The position numbers and the translations under genes are program-made. A stretch of 64,000 nucleotides of DNA from Methanoculleus formosensis (GTDB taxonomy: Archaea > Halobacteriota > Methanomicrobia > Methanomicrobiales > Methanoculleaceae): NCBI RefSeq assembly GCF_025384765.1, contig NZ_VHLL01000002.1, forward strand, positions 248,001 to 312,000. The letters are read 5' to 3'. The notes under the pieces are model-generated. The model had not been told where the DNA came from and did no database searches. It saw nothing but the letters and a program-made list of their open reading frames with translations. Numbering within the stretch: the stretch's first letter is position 1; the number at the start of each line of letters is the position of its first letter. Positions 3,729-53,622 of this stretch are shown here, one piece after another.

Positions 3729-3779
3729 CTTATCCCCCATTAGAGGGGTTGAAGCGCAAAATTTCGAACGGGGAGGGGA

Positions 3780-4661
3780 TCAAAGTGAGGGAAAGACCCG
3801 AATTATATCGGTCTGGGTAACGATCCCGACGGGCTTGTCGTCCTCGACCACAATCAGTCTCCCGATCTCCCGTTCCTTGAACCGGCCCACGAGCTCATAG
3901 AGCCGGATCGACGACGGCGCCTCGACCACATCGGCCGTCATGACTCCGGCAACCGGCGTATCCAGCGTCAGCCCCTCGTCCAGGGCGCGGGCGACATCGC
4001 TCAGTGTCACGATGCCCACGAGTTCTTCGCCGTCCTTCATCACCGGCGCGCCGTGGATATGGTGGGTATTGAAGAGGCGCACGGCATCGCGGAGGGTGGC
4101 GGTGGACGGCAGGGTCAGGAGCGGGGTGCTCATATAGTGCTTGATGGGCTGTTTCGGGAGGGATATCATCTCGGAGACGCTGATGAGGAGTGCCTGCAGG
4201 TTCTCGTCCATCCCGAAGACCTCGCCGCGGACGAGGAGTTTATTCACCGGCGTGGGACCGATCGAGACCATATCCCCAATGCGGAAGAGTTTCACGCTTC
4301 CGATGATCCGTACCATCGCCTGGCAGAGGTCGGGGTGGCAGAGGGTGGTGAACCCGAGCTCCGTGACGCGGACGCCCCTCACCTTCTCGCCGTCGCGGAA
4401 GATCGGTACCTCGGACTGGTGCTCGAGATCCCCGAGATTCAGTTCCCGGTAGGCTTCTGCAGTCGGGCTGTATCCTCCTTTCGGGCCGGGGACGCCTTCG
4501 ACCAGCCCGAGAGCCTTCAAAGCCTGCATCTGGTTGCGGACGGTCCCGGGGTTGCGCTTCAGCACCTCTGCGATCTCCTCACCTTTTATAGAGTGGGAAG
4601 ACTGATGATATAGGGTAATCAGGGTTATCAGGATATCCTTCTGAATCGGAGAGAGCTCCAT
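3780..4661 (-). CDS. Transcriptional regulator with winged helix and paired CBS domains
   Basis: This is a 293-aa putative regulator. Residues 1-75 form a winged helix-turn-helix (SIKGEEIAEVLKRNPGTVRNQMQALKALGLVEG, here spanning the recognition helix and wing, followed by PGPKGGYSPT). A middle domain (about 80-165) of unknown fold follows. Two CBS motifs (about 175-230 and 238-293) usually bind adenosine nucleotides and could sense energy status. This architecture is common in methanogens, and its targets are not known. It is divergent from the GTPase gene with only 39 bp between them. A TATA-like TATTTAAA at 4684-4691 would place its transcript start at the ATG. Confidence 0.85.
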   Translation of the reverse strand: MELSPIQKDILITLITLYHQSSHSIKGEEIAEVLKRNPGTVRNQMQALKALGLVEGVPGPKGGYSPTAEAYRELNLGDLEHQSEVPIFRDGEKVRGVRVTELGFTTLCHPDLCQAMVRIIGSVKLFRIGDMVSIGPTPVNKLLVRGEVFGMDENLQALLISVSEMISLPKQPIKHYMSTPLLTLPSTATLRDAVRLFNTHHIHGAPVMKDGEELVGIVTLSDVARALDEGLTLDTPVAGVMTADVVEAPSSIRLYELVGRFKEREIGRLIVVEDDKPVGIVTQTDIIRVFPSL

Positions 4662-9821: not shown

Positions 9822-10031
9822 ATGAAGTGCTACTACTGCGCCCTCGAGGGCAAGGATAGCGAGGCGGTGGCGATCTGCATCGTCTGCGGGATGGGGCTCT
9901 GCATGGAGCACGCGATCAGAAAGGACGTCGACGTCTGGGAGGGGGGCTACCCGCTCCCCAGCAAGCGTGTGAAGGCTCCGCTGCCGAGGATCCTCTGTCC
10001 CGAGTGCTATAACGCCCTGTATGGAAAGTAA
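9822..10031 (+). CDS. DUF2180 family cysteine-rich protein
   Basis: This is a 69-aa zinc-ribbon-like protein of unknown function. Metal ligands are likely Cys3/Cys6 (CYYC), Cys19/Cys22 (CIVC), Cys27 and His30 (CMEH) and Cys59/Cys62 (CPEC). That is enough for two zinc sites in a B-box-like arrangement. The start is fixed by AAGGAG 5-6 nt upstream of ATG 9822; the frame is open upstream inside DUF2193 but only this start gives the family's N-terminus MKCYYC. It lies directly behind DUF2193 in one transcript, which suggests the two act together. Confidence 0.88.
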   Translation: MKCYYCALEGKDSEAVAICIVCGMGLCMEHAIRKDVDVWEGGYPLPSKRVKAPLPRILCPECYNALYGK

Positions 10032-10098
10032 GATCACTCCCAAGCCTTTTTTTGGCTGAAGTCGCTTAACAAGAAGTATACTCAGTATTGGTGTAATC

Positions 10099-20002: not shown

Positions 20003-20821
20003 ATGAAACAGATCGCCCTCTACGGGAAGGGGGGAATCGGAAAATCCACCACCGCAGCGAACCTCTCGGCAGCACTCGCGGGGGAGAATCTCGATATCCT
20101 GCAGATCGGCTGCGATCCGAAGCACGACAGCACCCGCATGCTGATGCACGGGACCTGGATCCCGACCGTCCTCGACCTCATCCGGGAGCGCGGAGACGAG
20201 AACATCACCGTCGACGACGTGGTCCACCGGGGCTTTGGCGGCGTGCGCTGCGTGGAGGCGGGAGGGCCCGAGCCCGGGATCGGGTGTGCCGGCCGGGGGA
20301 TCATCGCGACGTTCCAACTCCTGGAACGCCTCGACGCCCTCAAGGGCGATGTGATCGTCTACGACGTCCTCGGCGACGTCGTCTGCGGCGGGTTTGCGAT
20401 GCCGATGCGCGAGGGGTACGCGCAGGAGGTCTACCTGGTCACCTCCGGCGAACTGATGTCCATCTACGCGGCAAACAACATCGCAAAAGCCATTGCGCGC
20501 CTCTCGCGCCGGGTGCGGAGCAGGTGTACCCTCGGGGGCGTCATCTGCAACGCAAAGAACATCGAGGGCGAGCAGGAACTCGTGGAGGAGTTCGCCCGCC
20601 GGATCAACTCCCGGCTCATCGCCTACATCCCCCGCTCCCGGGTCGTCCAGGTCGCGGAACTGCAGAAGCAGACGGTCGTCGAGTACGCCCCGGAGTCCGA
20701 TCAGGCCGCGGTCTACCAGGAGCTGGCACGCACGATCCAGAGAAACGAGACGACAAGCATCCCCACACCCCTCGAGATGGATGAACTCGAATCTTTCGCC
20801 CTCGAATTCGTCCAGGTTTGA
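20003..20821 (+). CDS. cfbC: Ni-sirohydrochlorin a,c-diamide reductive cyclase, reductase subunit CfbC
   Basis: CfbC is a nitrogenase-iron-protein homologue of 272 aa. It transfers electrons with ATP hydrolysis to CfbD in the reductive cyclisation step of coenzyme F430 synthesis, the cofactor of methyl-coenzyme M reductase. It has the P-loop GKGGIGKS (8-15), switch-region DPKHDST, and the two cysteines (Cys95 in GCAGRG and Cys128 in VVCGGFAMP) that bind the shared [4Fe-4S] cluster. It is distinguished from true NifH by context: the partner overlapping it is CfbD-like and no nifDKEN genes are present. Confidence 0.93.
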
Positions 20822-21848
20822 GGGGTGCACCCTGACCGGGGCGCTCTCGGTACTCACGGAGGTACGGGACGCCATCGCCGTCATCCACGGCCCTGCGGGG
20901 TGCACGCACCATAACTTCTCCCTCCTGCACGCTACCCACCTCGCAAACGACCGGCTGGAGGCTCCCCGCCTCCTCTCCACCCGCCTGACAGAGAACGGCA
21001 TCATCTTCGGGGGCGAAGACGCACTGGAGGAGACCCTCGCGCGGGCGGTCTCGCTCTCGCCCGCCGCCGTCTTCGTCCTCTCGACCTGCATCGTCGAGAC
21101 GATCGGAGACGACGTCGCGGCGATCTGCGCGAAACACCAGGAAGTCCCGGTGATCCCTGTCCCGACCGCCGGGTTCCTCGGCGGGGTCTTCGAGACGGGG
21201 GTGAGAAACGCCCTCTCCTCGGTCGCATCGCTCGCCGGTCCCGCGGACGAAGAAACCCTCTCGGCAAACCTGGTCGGCGAGAAGAACCTTGAATACGGCG
21301 TCGAGGAGAACGCAGCCGAGATCGTGCGCCTTCTCTCCCGGATCGGCATAGGGGTCAACCTCCGGTTCGTGCGGGGGATCGAGACGCGGGATATCGGGCG
21401 GCTCGGATCGGCCGCCGTCAACATCCTCCGGGAACCGGCGCTCCGCCCGGTCGCCGAAGACCTCCAGCGGAGGTTCGGTACGCCGTACGTGGACTCGTTC
21501 CCGGCGGGCCTCGCCGGGACGTGCCGCTTCCTCGAAGAGGTCGGCCGGATCTGCGGCATCGACGCCGACGCCGCCGTCGAGGAGGAGCGGGCCTACCAGG
21601 CGGAGATGCTCGGGGCGTTCGACGACATCGCCGGGAGCCGGGTATCGTTCCAGTCGCCCCACCCGATGCTCAGGGGCGATCCGGGCGCGGAAGCCATCTG
21701 CACCGAATGCGCCGGGGCTCTCGATCTTGCGGTCGAAGAGGACGGGGCGGCGATCCCGCTCCCCTACCCGGCGCCCGTCGGGACCGCCGGCCTGCGGCGG
21801 ATGCTGAACCGGTGGCGGGTGCTGATCCGGGAGAAGCAGCGCGGGTGA
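20781..21848 (+). CDS. cfbD: Ni-sirohydrochlorin a,c-diamide reductive cyclase, catalytic subunit CfbD
   Basis: CfbD is a 355-aa nitrogenase-component-1 homologue that carries a [4Fe-4S] cluster and binds the nickel tetrapyrrole. Candidate cluster cysteines are Cys16 (EGCTLTGAL), Cys41 ([10 protein letters not shown]) and Cys103 ([12 protein letters not shown]). ATG at 20781 lies inside cfbC, giving a 41-nt overlap and tight coupling of the two subunits. The other F430 genes (cfbA, cfbB, cfbE) are not in the window. Confidence 0.92.
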
Positions 21849-45276: not shown

Positions 45277-45741
45277 GGTTATCCGGGTAGGTGGCTCGGG
45301 CGATCATAAATACTCTTCAGTCACGCCGCATTGACGATCGCGATCCCTCTCTCGACCACCGGGCCCCGGCCCCTCTTCTGTATGCCCATACGCTGCTCGC
45401 ATTAGCATCCAGCCTGACAAATCTTTCGAAGCAGAATGCCCGTACCTCGATGTGGCCAGCGCGGCGTTCCGGATCCGGCGCTCGCATGAGTCCCCTCACC
45501 AGCCCGACCGAGGACGGCCGGAGGTTTCCAGACCCGGGCAGGAGATGAAAGGGGAGGGGGGCGATACAATCATTGTAATCATTTTCGATCCATTATCAAG
45601 AAGGATAAGCCAAATTAACTTATTTCAATTAACCCAGACCCGGAAAGCAATGATTTTCTCCATGAGGATGAAATTTCTCAATAATTCGGCGGGCCGTCCA
45701 GAAGAACGACTTGTTCCGCCGAACGCTAGCATACAGGTGTA
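45277..45741. other. Intergenic region with the leader of the ABC importer operon
   Basis: The left part serves the divergent exported-protein gene. Towards the right are ACAATCATTGT (about 45565), AT-rich sequence with TTAACTTATTTCAATTAA (45615-45632), and an inverted repeat just upstream of the importer gene. No gene is seen. Confidence 0.4.
45685..45723 (+). promoter_or_regulatory. Inverted repeat in front of the ABC importer operon
   Basis: TTCGGCGG (45685-45692) and CCGCCGAA (45716-45723) are exact inverted copies 23 nt apart. The right arm ends 18 nt before the first ATG. It could be an RNA stem in the leader or an operator. Confidence 0.45.
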
Positions 45742-46851
45742 ATGATGACGAAGACCCGTTACGTGCTCTGTGCACTCATCATCGCAGCCGGCATTCTCTG
45801 TTGTGGCTGCACGACGACAACACCGGCCTCCACGGCCGAAACACGGACGATCACCGATATGGCAGGAAACCAGATCACACTCCCCGCCAGCGGAGCAACC
45901 TTTGGTATCTTCGGCGGCCCCATCAGCCAGGTGCCCTACCTCCTTGGAGCGAACGAGAGCGTCACTGCAGTCACGAAAGGGCCGCAGATGATGGAGATGA
46001 TGCAGCAGATGGACCCGGGCATTGCCAGCAAACCAGCGCCGCGGACGACAAACGGCAACGTGAACATCGAGCAACTCCTGGTCACCAACCCCGACTGCGT
46101 CATTGCCTTCGACGTCGACGGCGAGATTGTGGAGTCGCAAACAGGCATCCCGGTCATCTATCTCTCCGGGACCATGAGCGACGGGTTCAAAGAGATGCGC
46201 CAGGAGATCATCTTCATGGGTGAGGTCTTCCAGAGACCTGAACGGGCACAGGCCTACATCGATTACCTGGATGAGACTCTCGCGTTCCTCGAGAACCGTA
46301 CCGCGGACATCCCTGAAGACGAGCGGGTCACCGTCTTCCTGGGCGAAGGCGTGAGCCACCTCCAGACGCTCGGGGGCGACACGTTCTTCACCGAGTGGAC
46401 CGAGGCCGCGGGATGCAGAAACGCCGTCGCCGCAATCGAGACCACCCAGGGACAGCAGGAAGGGATGCACACCGGCATCAATGAGGTCTCGATGGAGCAG
46501 GTCCTTGCCGTCGACCCCGGCCTCATCATCATCGATACCGGCGGCCCCGCCGATCTCGCGAAGGACAACCGCTGGAAGGAACTCACCGCCGTCAAAGAAG
46601 GCAGGGTCTACAAGCAGCCCACCGGGCTCTTCCTCTGGAGCCGTCCGTCCGCCGAGTCTGCCGTCCTCTACCCGGTCTGGATTGCATATATGGCCTATCC
46701 CGACCGCTTCGCCGACGTCCCGCTCACCGACCGGGTGAAGGACTTCTACACCGAGATCTTCGATTTCCCCATCACTGATGCGCAGGCGCAGAAGGTCATC
46801 GACGGTGCGTACGGAAGCGTGACGTTCGGTCAGGTGCAGCAGTCCGGATGA
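45742..46851 (+). CDS. ABC transporter substrate-binding lipoprotein (iron-chelate/corrinoid type)
   Basis: This 369-aa protein has a lipoprotein signal peptide (LCALIIAAGILCCGCTT, lipid likely on Cys22 of the GC pair), then a class III periplasmic-binding fold of the FepB/BtuF family. It has RTITDMAGNQITLP at the start, LVTNPDCVIAFD in the first lobe, a long central helix and DPGLIIIDTGGPAD in the second lobe. It delivers a metal chelate or corrinoid to the permease, and the ligand is unknown. The second ATG at 45745 is an alternative start. Its stop overlaps the permease start (ATGA). Confidence 0.9.
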   Translation: MMTKTRYVLCALIIAAGILCCGCTTTTPASTAETRTITDMAGNQITLPASGATFGIFGGPISQVPYLLGANESVTAVTKGPQMMEMMQQMDPGIASKPAPRTTNGNVNIEQLLVTNPDCVIAFDVDGEIVESQTGIPVIYLSGTMSDGFKEMRQEIIFMGEVFQRPERAQAYIDYLDETLAFLENRTADIPEDERVTVFLGEGVSHLQTLGGDTFFTEWTEAAGCRNAVAAIETTQGQQEGMHTGINEVSMEQVLAVDPGLIIIDTGGPADLAKDNRWKELTAVKEGRVYKQPTGLFLWSRPSAESAVLYPVWIAYMAYPDRFADVPLTDRVKDFYTEIFDFPITDAQAQKVIDGAYGSVTFGQVQQSG

Positions 46852-47963
46852 GACCGAAGACAATAGGCACCAAAAGTGCGTATGCTGACGTTGGAGGAGC
46901 ACCGGTGACCGGGACGGCAACGACCGAACCGGGTCAGGTTGACGGCCGGGGCTGGGGAGAGCGGCACCCGGGGACCGTCCTGGTGCTTCTCCTCGCCGTG
47001 CTCGGGATCGTTGCGTTTGCCGCCCTGATGCTCGGGCGGTATATCATCCAGCCAGAGACGGTGGTAGCGGTGATCCTGAGTTCGGTCCTCCCGATCGAGG
47101 AGACCTGGTCTTCGACGGCAGCCAGTGCCGTCGTGAACGTCCGGATCCCCCGGATCATCGCCGGACTGCTCGTCGGAGCCGGCCTCGCTATCAGCGGAGC
47201 CTCGTTCCAGGGGATGTTCCGAAACCCCCTTGTCTCTTCGCAGATCCTTGGCGTGGCCGCCGGAGCGGGTTTCGGGGCGGCGATCGGCATCCTCCTCTTC
47301 GACAGCCTTGTCGTCGTCCAGATCCTCTCGTTCGCCTTCGGTCTCCTCGCCGTGGGGATGGCCTACGGCCTCAGCCGGGTCAGGAGCTCGACTCCGATCC
47401 TGATGCTGGTTCTCTCAGGCATCGTGATCGCGTCACTCTTCTCGGCTCTCACCTCGATGGTGAAGTACGTGGCTGACCCGATGAACAAGATGCCGGCGAT
47501 CGTCTTCTGGCTGCTGGGGTCGCTCAACCACGTCTCGACACCGGACCTGCTGGTCCTCGGTCCGATCATAGCGGTCTCGGTCCTGGGACTACTTGCCGTC
47601 CGGTGGCGGATAAACGTCCTCACCATGGGCGATGAAGAGGCGCGGGCGCTCGGGGTGAACACCGAGCGCCTGAAAGTCATTATCATCCTCCTCGCAACGA
47701 TAATCACCGCTGCGGCGGTCTGCATGAGCGGGATCATAGGGTGGATCGGGCTCGTCATCCCGCATATGGGCCGGATGCTTGTCGGGCCGGACAACCGCTA
47801 CCTCCTGCCGGTCTCAGTGCTCCTTGGCGGAGCATTCCTGATCGCCGTCGACACCGTTGCGAGGACGGCAGCTCCCGCCGAGATACCCATCGGCATCCTG
47901 ACCGCGATCATTGGAGCGCCGATCTTTGCGCTACTCCTCCGGCGCAACAACCCGGGGTGGTGA
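46848..47963 (+). CDS. ABC transporter permease, FecCD/BtuC family
   Basis: This 371-aa permease has about ten membrane helices. Family signatures include VRIPRIIAGLLVGAGLAISG, which continues into FQGMFRNPL, and later GIIGWIGLVIPHMGRMLVGPDNR. The first 40 residues are polar and an unusual extension. It forms the channel for the substrate delivered by the lipoprotein. It overlaps its upstream neighbour by 4 nt and is 2 nt from the ATPase gene. Confidence 0.93.
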   Translation: MRPKTIGTKSAYADVGGAPVTGTATTEPGQVDGRGWGERHPGTVLVLLLAVLGIVAFAALMLGRYIIQPETVVAVILSSVLPIEETWSSTAASAVVNVRIPRIIAGLLVGAGLAISGASFQGMFRNPLVSSQILGVAAGAGFGAAIGILLFDSLVVVQILSFAFGLLAVGMAYGLSRVRSSTPILMLVLSGIVIASLFSALTSMVKYVADPMNKMPAIVFWLLGSLNHVSTPDLLVLGPIIAVSVLGLLAVRWRINVLTMGDEEARALGVNTERLKVIIILLATIITAAAVCMSGIIGWIGLVIPHMGRMLVGPDNRYLLPVSVLLGGAFLIAVDTVARTAAPAEIPIGILTAIIGAPIFALLLRRNNPGW

Positions 47964-47965
47964 GC

Positions 47966-48769
47966 ATGAGCCGTATCAGCGTAGAAGGTATAACATTCAA
48001 TTATCCAGGCAGAAGAGCAGTCTTTACGGAGATCACGCTTGCGGTGGAGGAGGGGGACGTATACTCCCTCCTCGGCCCGAACGGCACCGGGAAGTCCACG
48101 TTCCTCAAGTGCATGGCCGGACTCATCTCCCCCTCACACGGCCGCATCCTCCTCGACGGAAAGGAGATCAACGGGATGCAGCCATACGAGATCGCCCGGC
48201 GGGTTGGGTTTGTTCCCCAGACACAGGTCTCGCCGTTCCCGTTCCGGGTCAGGGATATCGTCCTGATGGGCAGGGCATCGCACCTCAATGCTTTTGCAAC
48301 CCCATCGGCAAAAGACGATGCCATCGCTGCCGACGCCCTTGCGCACGTCGGGATCTCTCACCTTGCCGACCGGGCATGCACCGCGATCAGCGGGGGCGAG
48401 TGGCAACTGGTCCTGATCGCCCGGGCAATTGCACAGCGCCCGGGGACCCTTCTTCTCGACGAACCGACGTCGCACCTGGACCTCGGCAACCAGATGCGGG
48501 TGCTCGACGTCATCAGGGGGCTCGCAGAAGGGGGGATGACCATTGTTGTTGCGACGCATTTCCCCGATCATGCGCTTTTGACATCAAGCAAGGTCGCAAT
48601 CCTGAAAGATCAAAGAATCATCGCCACAGGGCCTCCAGAAGAGGTTATCCGCGAAGACACCATGCGCCAGGCCTATGGGACGGACGTCAGAATCATGCAC
48701 CTTGGCGACCCGATCAACCGGCGGGTCTGCGTGCCGGTGGTTGAGACGTTCCGGAGAGGAGTATTATGA
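47966..48769 (+). CDS. ABC transporter ATP-binding protein, FecE/BtuD family
   Basis: This 267-aa ATPase has Walker A GPNGTGKST, the Q-loop in VPQTQ, a signature sequence SGGEWQ where LSGGQ is usual, Walker B LLLDEPTSHLD and the H-loop VVATHFPDH. The signature's Glu in place of Gln and the following Trp are uncommon but tolerated. ATG at 47966 follows GGTGAGC. The stop overlaps the methyltransferase start by 4 nt (ATGA). Confidence 0.93.
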   Translation: MSRISVEGITFNYPGRRAVFTEITLAVEEGDVYSLLGPNGTGKSTFLKCMAGLISPSHGRILLDGKEINGMQPYEIARRVGFVPQTQVSPFPFRVRDIVLMGRASHLNAFATPSAKDDAIAADALAHVGISHLADRACTAISGGEWQLVLIARAIAQRPGTLLLDEPTSHLDLGNQMRVLDVIRGLAEGGMTIVVATHFPDHALLTSSKVAILKDQRIIATGPPEEVIREDTMRQAYGTDVRIMHLGDPINRRVCVPVVETFRRGVL

Positions 48770-49407
48770 CAGAACAACCACACGAACCGTTTACCGGCAG
48801 AGGAGCCGGAAGAATGGATGCCATTGCGAAAGGGCCGTTTGCACCGATATATCCGGTCATCGCCCGGCAGATCATCGATACCTGCAACATCACCGAGGGC
48901 AGATGTGTCGATATCGGGTGCGGGCCCGGACACCTCGCAATGGCGCTCGGCGCCGCAAGCAACCTCAGTATCGACGCTCTTGACTCATCAAACGATATGC
49001 TTGCCATTGCACGGCAGAATATCCAGGAAGCCGGGCTCACCGACCGGGTACACACGGTCTGTGGCGATGTTCACGACCTCCCCTACGATGACAACTCCAT
49101 CGACCTGATCGTGAGCCGTGGCTCGTTCTTCTTCTGGGATGACCGGGTCCGGGCATTCCAGGAGATCTACCGGGTGCTCAGGCCGGGAGGGAGGACGTTC
49201 GTCGGCGGCGGGTTCGGGACTCCGGCTCTGAAGGCGGAGATTACGGAGAAGATGCGGGTCATCGACCCCGAGTGGGAGGTAAAGGCCGCAGAACGGCTTG
49301 CCCCGAAGAACAGGGACGCCATCCGCCGTGACCTGGAGAAGACAGGAATCCCGGTCTATGAGATCCACGAGGGCGAGGCCGGATTCTGGGTCATCATGCG
49401 GAAGTGA
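48766..49407 (+). CDS. Class I SAM-dependent methyltransferase in the ABC importer operon
   Basis: This 213-aa protein has motif I CVDIGCGPGHLAMAL and the acidic strand DALDSSNDMLAIA. FHDLPYDDNSIDLIVSRG (here VHDLPYDDNSIDLIVSRG) and YRVLRPGGR follow, placing it in the UbiE/Methyltransf_11 group that acts on small molecules. Co-translation with an importer suggests it methylates an imported compound or helps make one. The target is unknown. Confidence 0.88.
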   Translation: MTEQPHEPFTGRGAGRMDAIAKGPFAPIYPVIARQIIDTCNITEGRCVDIGCGPGHLAMALGAASNLSIDALDSSNDMLAIARQNIQEAGLTDRVHTVCGDVHDLPYDDNSIDLIVSRGSFFFWDDRVRAFQEIYRVLRPGGRTFVGGGFGTPALKAEITEKMRVIDPEWEVKAAERLAPKNRDAIRRDLEKTGIPVYEIHEGEAGFWVIMRK

Positions 49408-49414
49408 TCGAAGG

Positions 49415-51166
49415 ATGCGATGTACCATATGTGAGGTGGGGTGCGAGATCTCACCCGGAGGAACGGGGAGATGCCGGATGTACCGAAACGACGGGACCAC
49501 AATCGTCGAACGGTTCCCGGATGCCTTTCTCGCCGCCTTCCCCGTCGCCGTCGAGACGCTCCCGGTGCTCCATTTCTTCCCCGGCGCGAAGCTCCTACAG
49601 GTCTGCACGGTCGGATGCAACCTCGCATGCGGTGGGTGCGTCTCTGAGATCCTCGTCGGGCATGCCGATTCGCTTGCAGCCACCGGAGAGGCCCTCGGCC
49701 CCGATGACCTGCTCCGCCTCGCGACCGAGAACGCCTGTACCGGGATTGCCTTCGCCCTGAACGACCCGATCGCCTCCTTACCGACCTTCTGCCGTCTCGC
49801 AGAGAGGGCAAGGGAAGAAGGCCTCCTCGTCGGCTGCTCCACGAACGGCTACATGACCGAATCGTCCGCCCTGCGCCTCCGCGACCGGGTGGACTTCGTC
49901 AATATCGGGCTCAAGGGGGCGACCGACGCGAGTTACCATGCTTGCGGGGCAAAGAGCGCAGCACCGGTATTCCGGACGGTCCGGCTGCTTCACGAGGGAG
50001 GGGTGCACGTCGAGGCCTCCGTCGTCTACCGGCGGGGTGGTGAGGACGAGGTGATCGACGCAGCACGGATGCTTGCGGCGATCTCCCCTGATATCCCCCT
50101 GCAGGTGATGCGGTTCGTCCCCTTCGGCGATGCGGGGCTCGGTGAGGAGCCGACGATCTACGCGAGCGAGGAACTCTGCGACCGCCTCCGCGATATCCTC
50201 CCCTGGGTCTACCTCTTCAACTCACCGGGAACAACGCACCTGACGACCTTCTGCCCGGCATGCGGGATGCCCTGCATCGAGCGTGAGTTCTTCGGCCCGA
50301 TGGGGTCGCACCTCGTCAGTCGGGCGCAGACGGTCTGTGAATGCGGCCGCGCCCTCCCGGTTCGGGGTGCCGTGAGCCCCACAGTCTTTTACGAACCCGG
50401 GATGATGGGCGGATACCGGGTCACCCGGGGGCTCGAGATGGTCTGGGCAATCCTCGCCTGCCTCGGTGTGGAGGAACAGGCGGTCCTCGCCCGTGTCTGG
50501 GGCGAAGTTCTCCGGACCGGGATGCTCGGGAAGGAACTGCACGACCGGATGAACAACATCGACGCCTACCTCGAACTCGTCATGGACTTCGCCCGCCGGA
50601 CCGGCCGCGAGGAGGCGGGAAGGGAGCTCACTACCTACATCCGGGACCGGCTGGAGTTCATCCGGGAACGGGTGGCGGGTGCGCCACGGCCCCGGGTCTA
50701 CTACGCCATGGGCCACCCACTCTTCGCCCTCAATCCCGGCCGGTTCGAGGGGAAACTGGTGGAGGCGGCCGGCGGCACCTACGTCAACCGGGCGATAGAC
50801 AGGGAGGGGAAACCGGGGGTTTCCCTATCCCGGGAGGAGTTCGTCGCACTCGCGCCGGAGTACCTCTTCACGTCAGGTTTTCTCACCTCCACGGTCGAAG
50901 ATACCCTCCGCTACTGCGCGGAGCACGACCTCAACGTGCCGGCAGTCCGAGACGGTCAGGTCTACTCGATGCGCCCATCGTGGGACTTCGGGAGCCCCCG
51001 ATGGATCCTTGGCCTGATGACGATCACAAACACGCTCCACCCCGATCTCTTCGCCTTCGATATCGAGGAGGAGGCAGACAGGTTCTATCGTCGGTTCTAT
51101 GGGGTGCCGTATCGGGCGGCCGATGCCAACCGTTCGTTTGCGCATCCCGGGATGGAGTGGCGGTAA
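49415..51166 (+). CDS. Radical SAM enzyme fused to a substrate-binding-protein domain
   Basis: This 583-aa protein has an unusual layout. An N-terminal cysteine module (Cys3, 6, 10, 20) resembles that of glycyl-radical-activase-like radical SAM proteins. The radical SAM core carries the CX3CX2C motif Cys68-NLA-Cys72-GG-Cys75, then ALNDPI and VNIGLKG strands. A second cysteine cluster (Cys280, 283, 287, 308, 310) could hold another metal or Fe-S site. A C-terminal region (about 425-570) has the look of the periplasmic-binding fold (RPRVYYAMG, VEAAGGTYVN, LSREEFVALAPEYLFTSG). No signal peptide is present, so the binding domain is cytoplasmic. ATG at 49415 lies 7 nt after the methyltransferase stop, preceded by AAGG. 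Function unknown. Confidence 0.85.
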   Translation: MRCTICEVGCEISPGGTGRCRMYRNDGTTIVERFPDAFLAAFPVAVETLPVLHFFPGAKLLQVCTVGCNLACGGCVSEILVGHADSLAATGEALGPDDLLRLATENACTGIAFALNDPIASLPTFCRLAERAREEGLLVGCSTNGYMTESSALRLRDRVDFVNIGLKGATDASYHACGAKSAAPVFRTVRLLHEGGVHVEASVVYRRGGEDEVIDAARMLAAISPDIPLQVMRFVPFGDAGLGEEPTIYASEELCDRLRDILPWVYLFNSPGTTHLTTFCPACGMPCIEREFFGPMGSHLVSRAQTVCECGRALPVRGAVSPTVFYEPGMMGGYRVTRGLEMVWAILACLGVEEQAVLARVWGEVLRTGMLGKELHDRMNNIDAYLELVMDFARRTGREEAGRELTTYIRDRLEFIRERVAGAPRPRVYYAMGHPLFALNPGRFEGKLVEAAGGTYVNRAIDREGKPGVSLSREEFVALAPEYLFTSGFLTSTVEDTLRYCAEHDLNVPAVRDGQVYSMRPSWDFGSPRWILGLMTITNTLHPDLFAFDIEEEADRFYRRFYGVPYRAADANRSFAHPGMEWR

Positions 51167-52227: not shown

Positions 52228-53622
52228 TCAGGCCGGCCCCGGTTCCTCCCCGCCGAGGTTCAGTTTCTTCATCTTCCAGGCTCCCCGCCGGTAGAAGAAC
52301 AGGTCAACCAGGAAGACCACCACGGAGCCGCAGACCACCGCGTACCAGATGTACTGTAGCGGCATACCCATCAGAACAAAGATCGCGGCAAGACCCACCT
52401 GCACGATCAGCTGTCCTATGATCGCCGCGTACATGCCGGGTTTTGTCATCCCCGCGCCGTTCATCGCAAACCCCATCGTCATCGCCATGGCTATTACGAA
52501 GTACGACGTCGGGACGATCTGCATGAACGGGATGCCGTCCGCAAGCGACTCGCCTGTCGCGCCGAAGAACGCCAGGAGGTGCTCCGCAAACCGCAGGTAG
52601 AAGAGACCCACGATCACCATGAACGACGCGTTCGCGACGAGCGCAATCCTGACCGCCTTCTCCGCTCGCTCCACCTTCTGCGCCCCCAGGTTCTGCCCGA
52701 CCATCACCGCGACTCCCGTGCAGAGACCCATCACGACGATCAGGCCCAGCATATCCAGACGCTGGCAGATACCATATGCCGCCACCGCCGCCGTGCCATA
52801 CAGTGCCACGATGGCAGTCATCCCCAGGAACGCAAAACTCCGAATGCCGCTCTGCACCGCCGATGGGATCGTGACCCTCAGGATATCCATGACCAGTCGC
52901 GGTTCAAACGTCCACTTCTTCGGGAACCTGACCGGCCCGCTCTTTTTGGACGGGAGGAGGTACATCGCGCCGACCAGCAGGAGCACGCCGATCACACGCG
53001 ACGCAAGGGACGCATACGCCGACCCGGCTATCCCGAGTGCCGGAAGACCGCCAAGGCCCTGGATCAGCGTCGGGTTCAGGACGACGTTCACGATGTTCAC
53101 CGCAATCATCACAAACATCGGTGTCCGCGAATCTCCCGTGCTCTGGAAGGTTGTCGTCAGGATCATCAGGGTGACAAAGATAAACGCTCCCATCAGCATC
53201 GGGGAGAGGAAGCGCCCCCCCTCCGCTGCAACCGCGGCATCCGCTCCAAGGAGCAGGAGGAGATCCTGCGACCAGAAGAGGCCGATGACAGCAAGGACCG
53301 CCGAGAAGGAGAGCGCCAGATAGAGCGAGTGCGAGAGGATCACCTGGATACGCTCAAACCGTTCCGATCCGTACGCACGCGAGACGAATGCAGCGGTTGC
53401 CGTCACGACCCCGAAGATCACGGTCGTGAGCACCATGATGATGGATATACTCATCGCTCCCCCGGCGATCGAGACGTCGCCAAGTTTGCCGATGAAATAC
53501 ATATCCACCACCTCCACGATGCTCGCGAGGAAATTGCTGACGATGATCGGGAGAGCCACCATCAAGAGGCCTTTTCCGACCGGTCCCTCGGTGAGGATGT
53601 TATTGGAAGAGCTCATTGTCAA
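52228..53622 (-). CDS. MATE-family efflux transporter
   Basis: This 464-aa membrane protein has twelve hydrophobic segments and the internal two-fold repeat of MATE exporters: GPVGKGLLMVALPIIVSNF and EVVDMYFIGKLGDVSIAG in the first half, and PSAVQSGIRSFAFLGMTAIV and GICQRLDMLG in the second. It likely exports cationic compounds in exchange for Na+ or H+. ATG at 53616 is an alternative start. It is divergent from the next gene by nearly 800 bp. Confidence 0.92.
   Translation of the reverse strand: MTMSSSNNILTEGPVGKGLLMVALPIIVSNFLASIVEVVDMYFIGKLGDVSIAGGAMSISIIMVLTTVIFGVVTATAAFVSRAYGSERFERIQVILSHSLYLALSFSAVLAVIGLFWSQDLLLLLGADAAVAAEGGRFLSPMLMGAFIFVTLMILTTTFQSTGDSRTPMFVMIAVNIVNVVLNPTLIQGLGGLPALGIAGSAYASLASRVIGVLLLVGAMYLLPSKKSGPVRFPKKWTFEPRLVMDILRVTIPSAVQSGIRSFAFLGMTAIVALYGTAAVAAYGICQRLDMLGLIVVMGLCTGVAVMVGQNLGAQKVERAEKAVRIALVANASFMVIVGLFYLRFAEHLLAFFGATGESLADGIPFMQIVPTSYFVIAMAMTMGFAMNGAGMTKPGMYAAIIGQLIVQVGLAAIFVLMGMPLQYIWYAVVCGSVVVFLVDLFFYRRGAWKMKKLNLGGEEPGPA

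Follow-up and report, generated by a model that had tools for sequence, protein, structure and literature searches.

What does an archaeal importer bring in when it is encoded together with two enzymes that use S-adenosylmethionine (SAM), one of which carries part of a binding-protein fold? The question is raised by a 64,000-nucleotide stretch of the Methanoculleus formosensis genome (contig NZ_VHLL01000002.1, positions 248,001 to 312,000; hereafter the window), in which five co-directional genes occupy 45742-51166 on the + strand. We propose, with moderate confidence, that these genes form an operon for acquisition of molybdenum or tungsten (Mo/W), possibly also vanadium, in which a methyltransferase and a radical SAM enzyme act on an organic ligand of the metal. 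The assignment to Mo/W is strong because Mo/W riboswitches, a Mod/Wtp gene context, and a cis site held in common with wtpA all point to it.

A five-gene operon combines an ABC importer with two SAM-dependent enzymes

Successive reading frames either overlap at ATGA or are separated by no more than 7 nt, confirming the tight arrangement that an original prediction from the DNA letters had described. ABC denotes ATP-binding cassette.

45742-46851, + strand: substrate-binding lipoprotein of MolA/FepB type, 369 amino acids (PF01497, 69.6 bits)
46848-47963, + strand: FecCD/BtuC-type permease, 371 amino acids (PF01032, 281.9 bits), with an ATGA, 4-nt overlap with the binding-protein gene
47966-48769, + strand: ABC ATPase of FecE/BtuD type, 267 amino acids (PF00005, 108 bits)
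48766-49407, + strand: class I SAM-dependent methyltransferase, 213 amino acids (PF08241, 90.6 bits), with an ATGA overlap with the ATPase gene
49415-51166, + strand: radical SAM enzyme fused to a binding-protein lobe (the fusion), 583 amino acids, after a 7-nt gap

The ATPase ATG lies 2 nt past the permease stop (TGAgcATG), while an alternative in-frame GTG at 47960 would overlap the permease gene (GTGA). Pfam and NCBIfam searches assigned, in gene order, Peripla_BP_2, FecCD, ABC_tran, Methyltransf_11, and Radical_SAM plus Peripla_BP_2, in agreement with the predicted joining of a FepB/BtuF-type importer to two SAM-using enzymes. No operon protein, the methyltransferase included, reached an NCBIfam equivalog cut-off among the matches shown, and a search against viral contigs gave no matches.

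The methyltransferase and the fusion are linked across phyla

Homologues of the fusion are found throughout Methanomicrobiales, in other archaeal families such as Methanosarcinaceae, and in Clostridia and sulfate-reducing bacteria (Syntrophomonas, Desulfosporosinus, Desulfobacula, Desulfobacter, Solidesulfovibrio, and others). Linkage was examined on gene maps built from simple open reading frame calls for 42 representatives with <80% identity, comprising 34 main-class fusions and 8 of a divergent class C. The methyltransferase gene is the most constant neighbour, lying within 5.5 kb of the fusion in 30/34 main-class loci and directly upstream in 26/34. Within the same distance, a binding-protein gene was present in 23/34 and a permease gene in 17/34, so that fusion homologues are not mostly found away from importers and methyltransferases. 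The class-C fusions mostly stood alone.

The order binding protein, permease, ATPase, methyltransferase, fusion is kept in near relatives (L051-L056), and Methanosarcinaceae have the order binding protein, methyltransferase, fusion, permease, ATPase. The core of the maps consists of the methyltransferase and the fusion, with the importer genes set in line or convergent. Both the order conserved among near relatives and the linkage of the two enzyme genes across phyla support the predicted single functional unit.

Mo/W riboswitches head 9/16 clostridial operons

RF01055 is the aptamer for the molybdenum or tungsten cofactor (Regulski et al. 2008, PMC2408646). Rfam scans placed it, on the correct strand, at the head of 9/16 independent clostridial operons with a visible 5' end. 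In Syntrophomonas (L103) it lies at 3770-3917, ahead of a permease gene at 4078, with L104 arranged alike, and in another member of the Syntrophomonadaceae (L111) it lies at 1960-2101, ahead of a binding-protein gene at 2362. Desulfosporosinus carries it at 9940-10072 (L237, the same locus as L107), and it is also present in the related L247 and in L271. With at most 15 RF01055 aptamers per 3.2-Mb genome, the chance of finding one in a 700-nt same-strand interval is ~0.0016; by hand arithmetic, ~0.03 would therefore be expected in 16 operons, compared with the nine seen. The M. formosensis operon has no RF01055, and the Rfam scan of the window gave nothing.

The same riboswitch heads related operons, counted among the nine, that encode a standalone radical SAM protein together with DUF364 or with X390, a family of ~390 amino acids (L277, L278, L279, L280). 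X390 adjoins a standalone AmmeMemo-like radical SAM gene, in many cases accompanied by an importer of the same type and by Mo/W riboswitches (L102:5148-6326, L101, L106, L037, L197, L204, L250, L276-L280), and the member scanned had no Pfam or NCBIfam match. X390 and the standalone radical SAM protein probably constitute a sister Mo/W system.

The operon and wtpA have a common upstream repeat

Upstream of the operon we identified an inverted repeat followed directly by a putative promoter.

45614-45633, strand not assigned: inverted repeat ATTAACTTATTTCAATTAAC of the family GTTAA-N10-TTAAC, a candidate site for a Mo/W-responsive regulator
45642-45659, + strand: AAAG...TTTT block, a predicted archaeal B recognition element (BRE)/TATA promoter from the ortholog alignment

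When the leaders of seven orthologous operons were aligned, the GTTAA-N10-TTAAC half-sites were conserved and the AAAG..TTTT block, a probable BRE/TATA promoter, followed. The M. formosensis genome has only six exact matches to RTTAA-N10-TTAAY, three of which are promoter-proximal to metal importers, namely the operon, wtpA, and a second FecCD importer. The wtpA copy lies 53 nt before the ATG, with a similar AAAG..TTTT-like block behind it. At the second FecCD importer (G000:C2:130050-133258, L286), the site GTTAACTAAGTAAAATTAAC is located 33 nt upstream of the called start; this is possibly another Mo/W importer.

Allowing at most one mismatch, the repeat was present in 19/19 operon leaders and in 17/20 wtpA leaders, nearly all of the latter at one position, compared with 0.3 and 0.6 matches in mononucleotide shuffles of the wtpA and operon leader sets, respectively. 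Among the wtpA leaders the half-sites remain constant while the spacers vary. Control genes from the same loci matched in 19/162 leaders, some of which share the same intergenic region. The wtpA leaders were enriched relative to AT-matched controls (17/20 versus 15/78, Fisher P = 8e-8), a value that is optimistic because the wtpA leaders are related and ~420 nt long versus 250 nt for controls.

These counts bear on the possibility that the resemblance to the wtpA repeat and the proximity of Mo/W genes arose by coincidence and that the operon is no more than a chance run of five co-directional genes. Methanogen genomes are rich in FecCD importers and methyltransferases, and TTAA words are common in AT-rich promoters, as the control leaders illustrate. 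Set against this are the cross-phylum linkage, the excess of riboswitch-led operons, and the enrichment at wtpA over AT-matched controls, and we consider coincidence highly improbable.

The binding protein resembles MolA

The binding protein has a signal peptide and a lipobox-like CCGC, as judged by eye. In phmmer searches of the PDB, its best matches were 4ovk and 4pag, followed by MolA HI_1472 (3psa/3psh), well ahead of BtuF, FhuD, and IsdE. The match to MolA 3psa (E = 3e-18) extended over ~300 residues, and by sequence similarity MolA, a molybdate/tungstate binder, is the best functionally characterised PDB relative. The ATPase scored below the cut-offs of TIGR03873 and of corrinoid/heme ATPase models, and with the NCBIfam models BtuF reached 26.6 of 234 bits and BtuC 230.6 of 461 bits.

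The cargo could instead be a corrinoid or other tetrapyrrole, salvaged by BtuFCD-like import and remodelled by methylation and radical chemistry. This would fit the FecCD/BtuC-type importer and its BtuF-like matches, and NifDKH-like genes within the Desulfosporosinus operon could be tetrapyrrole reductases; however, the NifD/K-like pair there scores best with the nifD/nifK models. Mo/W riboswitches were found at many loci, whereas among 43 loci scanned whole with Rfam a cobalamin riboswitch occurred in L148 alone and in no genuine relative. L148 was set aside as a 23%-identity outlier. We regard corrinoid salvage as very unlikely.

Uptake of an iron (or nickel/cobalt) siderophore followed by processing of the ferri-siderophore is equally hard to credit. 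It is suggested by the FepB/FecCD family names and by the presence, next to relatives, of a TonB receptor gene (L131) or of an importer of Nik/Opp type (L119), but such regulatory evidence as was found indicates Mo/W throughout, and scans of the loci reported neither an iron nor a nickel riboswitch.

The radical SAM enzyme carries a partial binding-protein fold

The fusion contains two recognisable parts.

49415-50374, + strand: radical SAM domain, residues 1-320, with N-terminal C3/C6/C10/C20, CX3CX2C at C68/C72/C75, and C280/C283/C308/C310
50561-51109, + strand: binding-protein lobe, residues ~383-565 (PF01497, 32 bits)

For the radical SAM part, the closest family is AmmeMemoRadiSam (TIGR04337; 104.2 bits, below the curated cut-off of 220). 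The cysteine motifs of that family, CX2CX3CX9C, CX3CX2C, and CPxCG..CxxCG, are all present, with CxCG replacing CxxCG, and the positions are at least 95% conserved across 41 diverse main-class rows. An AmmeMemo radical SAM protein encoded elsewhere in the M. formosensis genome has a nearly identical cysteine pattern without the lobe. No Memo/AMMECR1 partner gene was recognised in the operon, and no genome-wide search was made for one. In a quick tree of fusions, standalone radical SAM proteins, and this AmmeMemo protein, the fusions formed one clade (SH-aLRT 99), with the standalone group outside and a long branch leading to the AmmeMemo protein. One short 'standalone' row nested within the fusion clade came from a contig end.

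The C-terminal match spans only positions 93-233 of the Peripla_BP_2 profile. An AlphaFold model of the fusion, based on 15 homologues, had a predicted local distance difference test score (pLDDT) of 86 and a predicted template modelling score (pTM) of 0.87. With Foldseek it matched the binding proteins 4hn9, 4ovk, 4pag, and MolA 3psa over ~200 residues, and the barrel matched PflA, NifB, and MoaA. According to DSSP, a helical segment (335-395) occupies the place of the N-terminal Rossmann lobe, which the model lacks. A binding-protein fold is therefore present as predicted, but as a backbone helix and C-terminal lobe rather than a complete copy. The lobe loops YxMGxPLFALN..RxE, GxPG, and WDFGSPRW are as conserved as the radical SAM core in the 41 rows, an indication that the ligand surface has been retained.

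In three Methanoculleus-type genomes the fusion gene is split into radical SAM and lobe frames (L065:8832-10568, L035:7690-9427, L036:6123-7746), which may reflect fission, frameshift, or assembly error. Recoding of in-frame TAG codons was rejected for intact homologues, whose reading frames are complete and end naturally at the TAG, near residue 581.

Neighbouring genes and the nature of the ligand

Mo/W genes recur around the relatives, and vnf or anf nitrogenase genes flank second copies of the fusion in Methanosarcina. In Desulfosporosinus the series runs modA, modB, ATPase, riboswitch, modB, modC-like ATPase, modA, modD, riboswitch, and continues with an XdhC-family maturation factor of aldehyde ferredoxin oxidoreductase (AOR), binding protein, permease, ATPase, methyltransferase, NifD-, NifK-, and NifH-like genes, and the fusion. 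The Solidesulfovibrio operon continues into a YdhV-type (W-type) AOR and YdhW, and in the methanogen L069, modA (156 bits, which exceeds the cut-off), modB, and the gene for a wtpC-like ATPase lie directly upstream of the methyltransferase and fusion. Mod permeases were found near 7 independent fusions, DUF364 near 9, and FmdE near 9; as each Methanoculleus genome has about three FmdE homologues, about one FmdE neighbour would be expected by chance. DUF364 was earlier placed near Mo/W/vanadium transport (PMC2954201).

Other neighbours of relatives include accessory methyltransferases (OMT, A278) and HmdB/BioB-like radical SAM genes. The latter occur in clostridial operons (L271:4046-4930, L247:3007-3867), which may indicate a ligand of greater complexity in these operons. 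The Gram-negative relative L131 has a TonB receptor beside the operon, with further TonB receptor matches among neighbours, and some relatives' operons hold two or three binding proteins.

In our proposal, the MolA-type lipoprotein, BtuC-like permease, and ATPase would import a Mo/W species, and the cytoplasmic methyltransferase and radical SAM enzyme would either build a chelator or remodel or open an imported metal-ligand complex. The fused lobe may hold the ligand beside the radical SAM active site. Expression would follow Mo/W supply, through the cofactor riboswitch in Clostridia and the GTTAA-N10-TTAAC site in methanogens. Indirect support for an organic ligand comes from the pairing of two SAM enzymes, the accessory methyltransferases, DUF364, the HmdB/BioB-like proteins, the TonB receptor, the multiple binding proteins, and the lobe. 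The original prediction, that a ligand is imported and chemically modified or that a metallophore is made and retrieved, is plausible, with the candidates narrowed to Mo/W; the corrinoid and iron options gained no support.

Several observations weigh against this proposal. MolA itself takes up bare molybdate (PMC4031551), so an importer of this type needs no organic ligand. No metallophore exporter recurs among fusion neighbours. RF01055 is lacking from 7/16 clostridial operons (L250, L270, L272, L273, L274, L275, L276), and L272 showed no riboswitch even at a low threshold. Finally, because WtpA is encoded in the M. formosensis genome and in most relatives, the operon is probably not the sole W route; its presence also rules out the operon as a replacement for WtpABC.

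The main rival explanation is that the importer brings in bare Mo/W oxyanion, and that the methyltransferase and radical SAM enzyme serve another Mo/W step, by maturing an enzyme or cofactor (of pterin, nitrogenase-like, or AOR type) or by modifying a protein. PflA-like radical SAM enzymes frequently act on proteins, the methyltransferase-fusion pair can have a classical ModABC as its partner in place of the MolA-type importer (L069, L105), and the neighbours include XdhC, AOR, NifDKH-like, and vnf/anf genes. However, none of the Mo/W enzymes is found consistently next to the fusion, and the presence in the radical SAM enzyme of a ligand-binding lobe whose loops are conserved points to a small ligand. 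The occurrence of TonB receptors, and of two or three binding proteins in one operon, suggests that the imported ligands are varied or large. We judge maturation unlikely, though a serious contender to action on an organic metal ligand.

Extending the organic-ligand proposal, anaerobic archaea and bacteria may share a SAM-based Mo/W metallophore or ligand-remodelling pathway, in which the radical SAM enzyme's acquired lobe recognises the metal-ligand complex inside the cytoplasm and of which the standalone radical SAM protein with X390 is a sister version; we put this forward more tentatively.

Relation to known systems

The operon resembles the molybdate/tungstate type II importer MolBC-A (HI1470-1472) in the fold and sequence of the binding protein and in the BtuC/FecCD-type permease. 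It differs in that 4ovk and 4pag outscore MolA as relatives of the operon's binding protein, whose Mo/W ligand is predicted; to our knowledge, MolBC-A has no methyltransferase or radical SAM partner. MolBC-A imports Mo with low affinity and operates in parallel with ModBC-A (PMC4031551), a pairing that parallels the coexistence of the operon with WtpA. WtpABC and ModABC have the probable metal in common with the operon, the repeat is common to the operon and wtpA, and ModABC sometimes replaces the importer beside the methyltransferase and fusion; however, both belong to the type I importers, carry bare oxyanions, and have no SAM enzymes.

AmmeMemoRadiSam proteins (TIGR04337) have a similar radical SAM domain and cysteine motifs, whereas the fusion falls below the family cut-off, bears the lobe, and is separated from the AmmeMemo protein of its own genome by a long branch. 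The DUF364/DUF4213 'heavy-metal chelation' loci (Dhaf4260) lie near ABC importers, with a pterin-, flavin-, or siderophore-like predicted substrate, and the structure paper leaves radical SAM unmentioned (PMC2954201). Unlike these loci, the window operon lacks DUF364.

Siderophore-type systems such as FepBCD offer a working analogy, as they would similarly combine a chelate-type importer with cytoplasmic ligand-processing enzymes. The catechol molybdophores of Azotobacter are metallophores of this type. In the operon, by contrast, no nonribosomal peptide synthetase or catechol genes were seen, the predicted chemistry is SAM-radical instead, and no exporter recurs near the fusion in relatives. 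Searches of openly licensed PMC papers turned up neither a description nor a name for a system of this kind.

Where habitats are sulfidic and anoxic, Mo and W are in short supply or bound as thio- and organic complexes, and methanogens, syntrophs, and sulfate reducers need them for formylmethanofuran and formate dehydrogenases, AOR, and nitrogenases. If our proposal is correct, these metals would be obtained or processed by a new route, a widespread pathway that is regulated by Mo/W and employs two SAM enzymes. Such a pathway would assign a function to an orphan radical SAM/methyltransferase pair and place DUF364 and X390 in a context. It would also explain second copies beside vanadium and iron nitrogenases in Methanosarcina. 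The repeat provides a candidate Mo/W regulatory site in Methanomicrobiales.

Additional observations

Second fusion copies in Methanosarcina adjoin vnfDGK in L178 (L206 has the same layout) and anfDGK-anfO in L176. The NifD/NifK/NifH-like genes between the methyltransferase and the fusion in the riboswitch-led Desulfosporosinus operon (L107:6193-9899) score under the nifD/nifK cut-offs. Downstream of the window operon, on the opposite strand, 52228-53622 encodes a MATE efflux transporter (213 bits, TIGR00797), which is probably unrelated because exporters do not recur near the fusion in relatives. At 20003-21845, 25 kb from the operon, a NifH/CfbC-like gene (over the cut-off of the CfbC model) is followed by a component-1-like nitrogenase gene closest to NifE.

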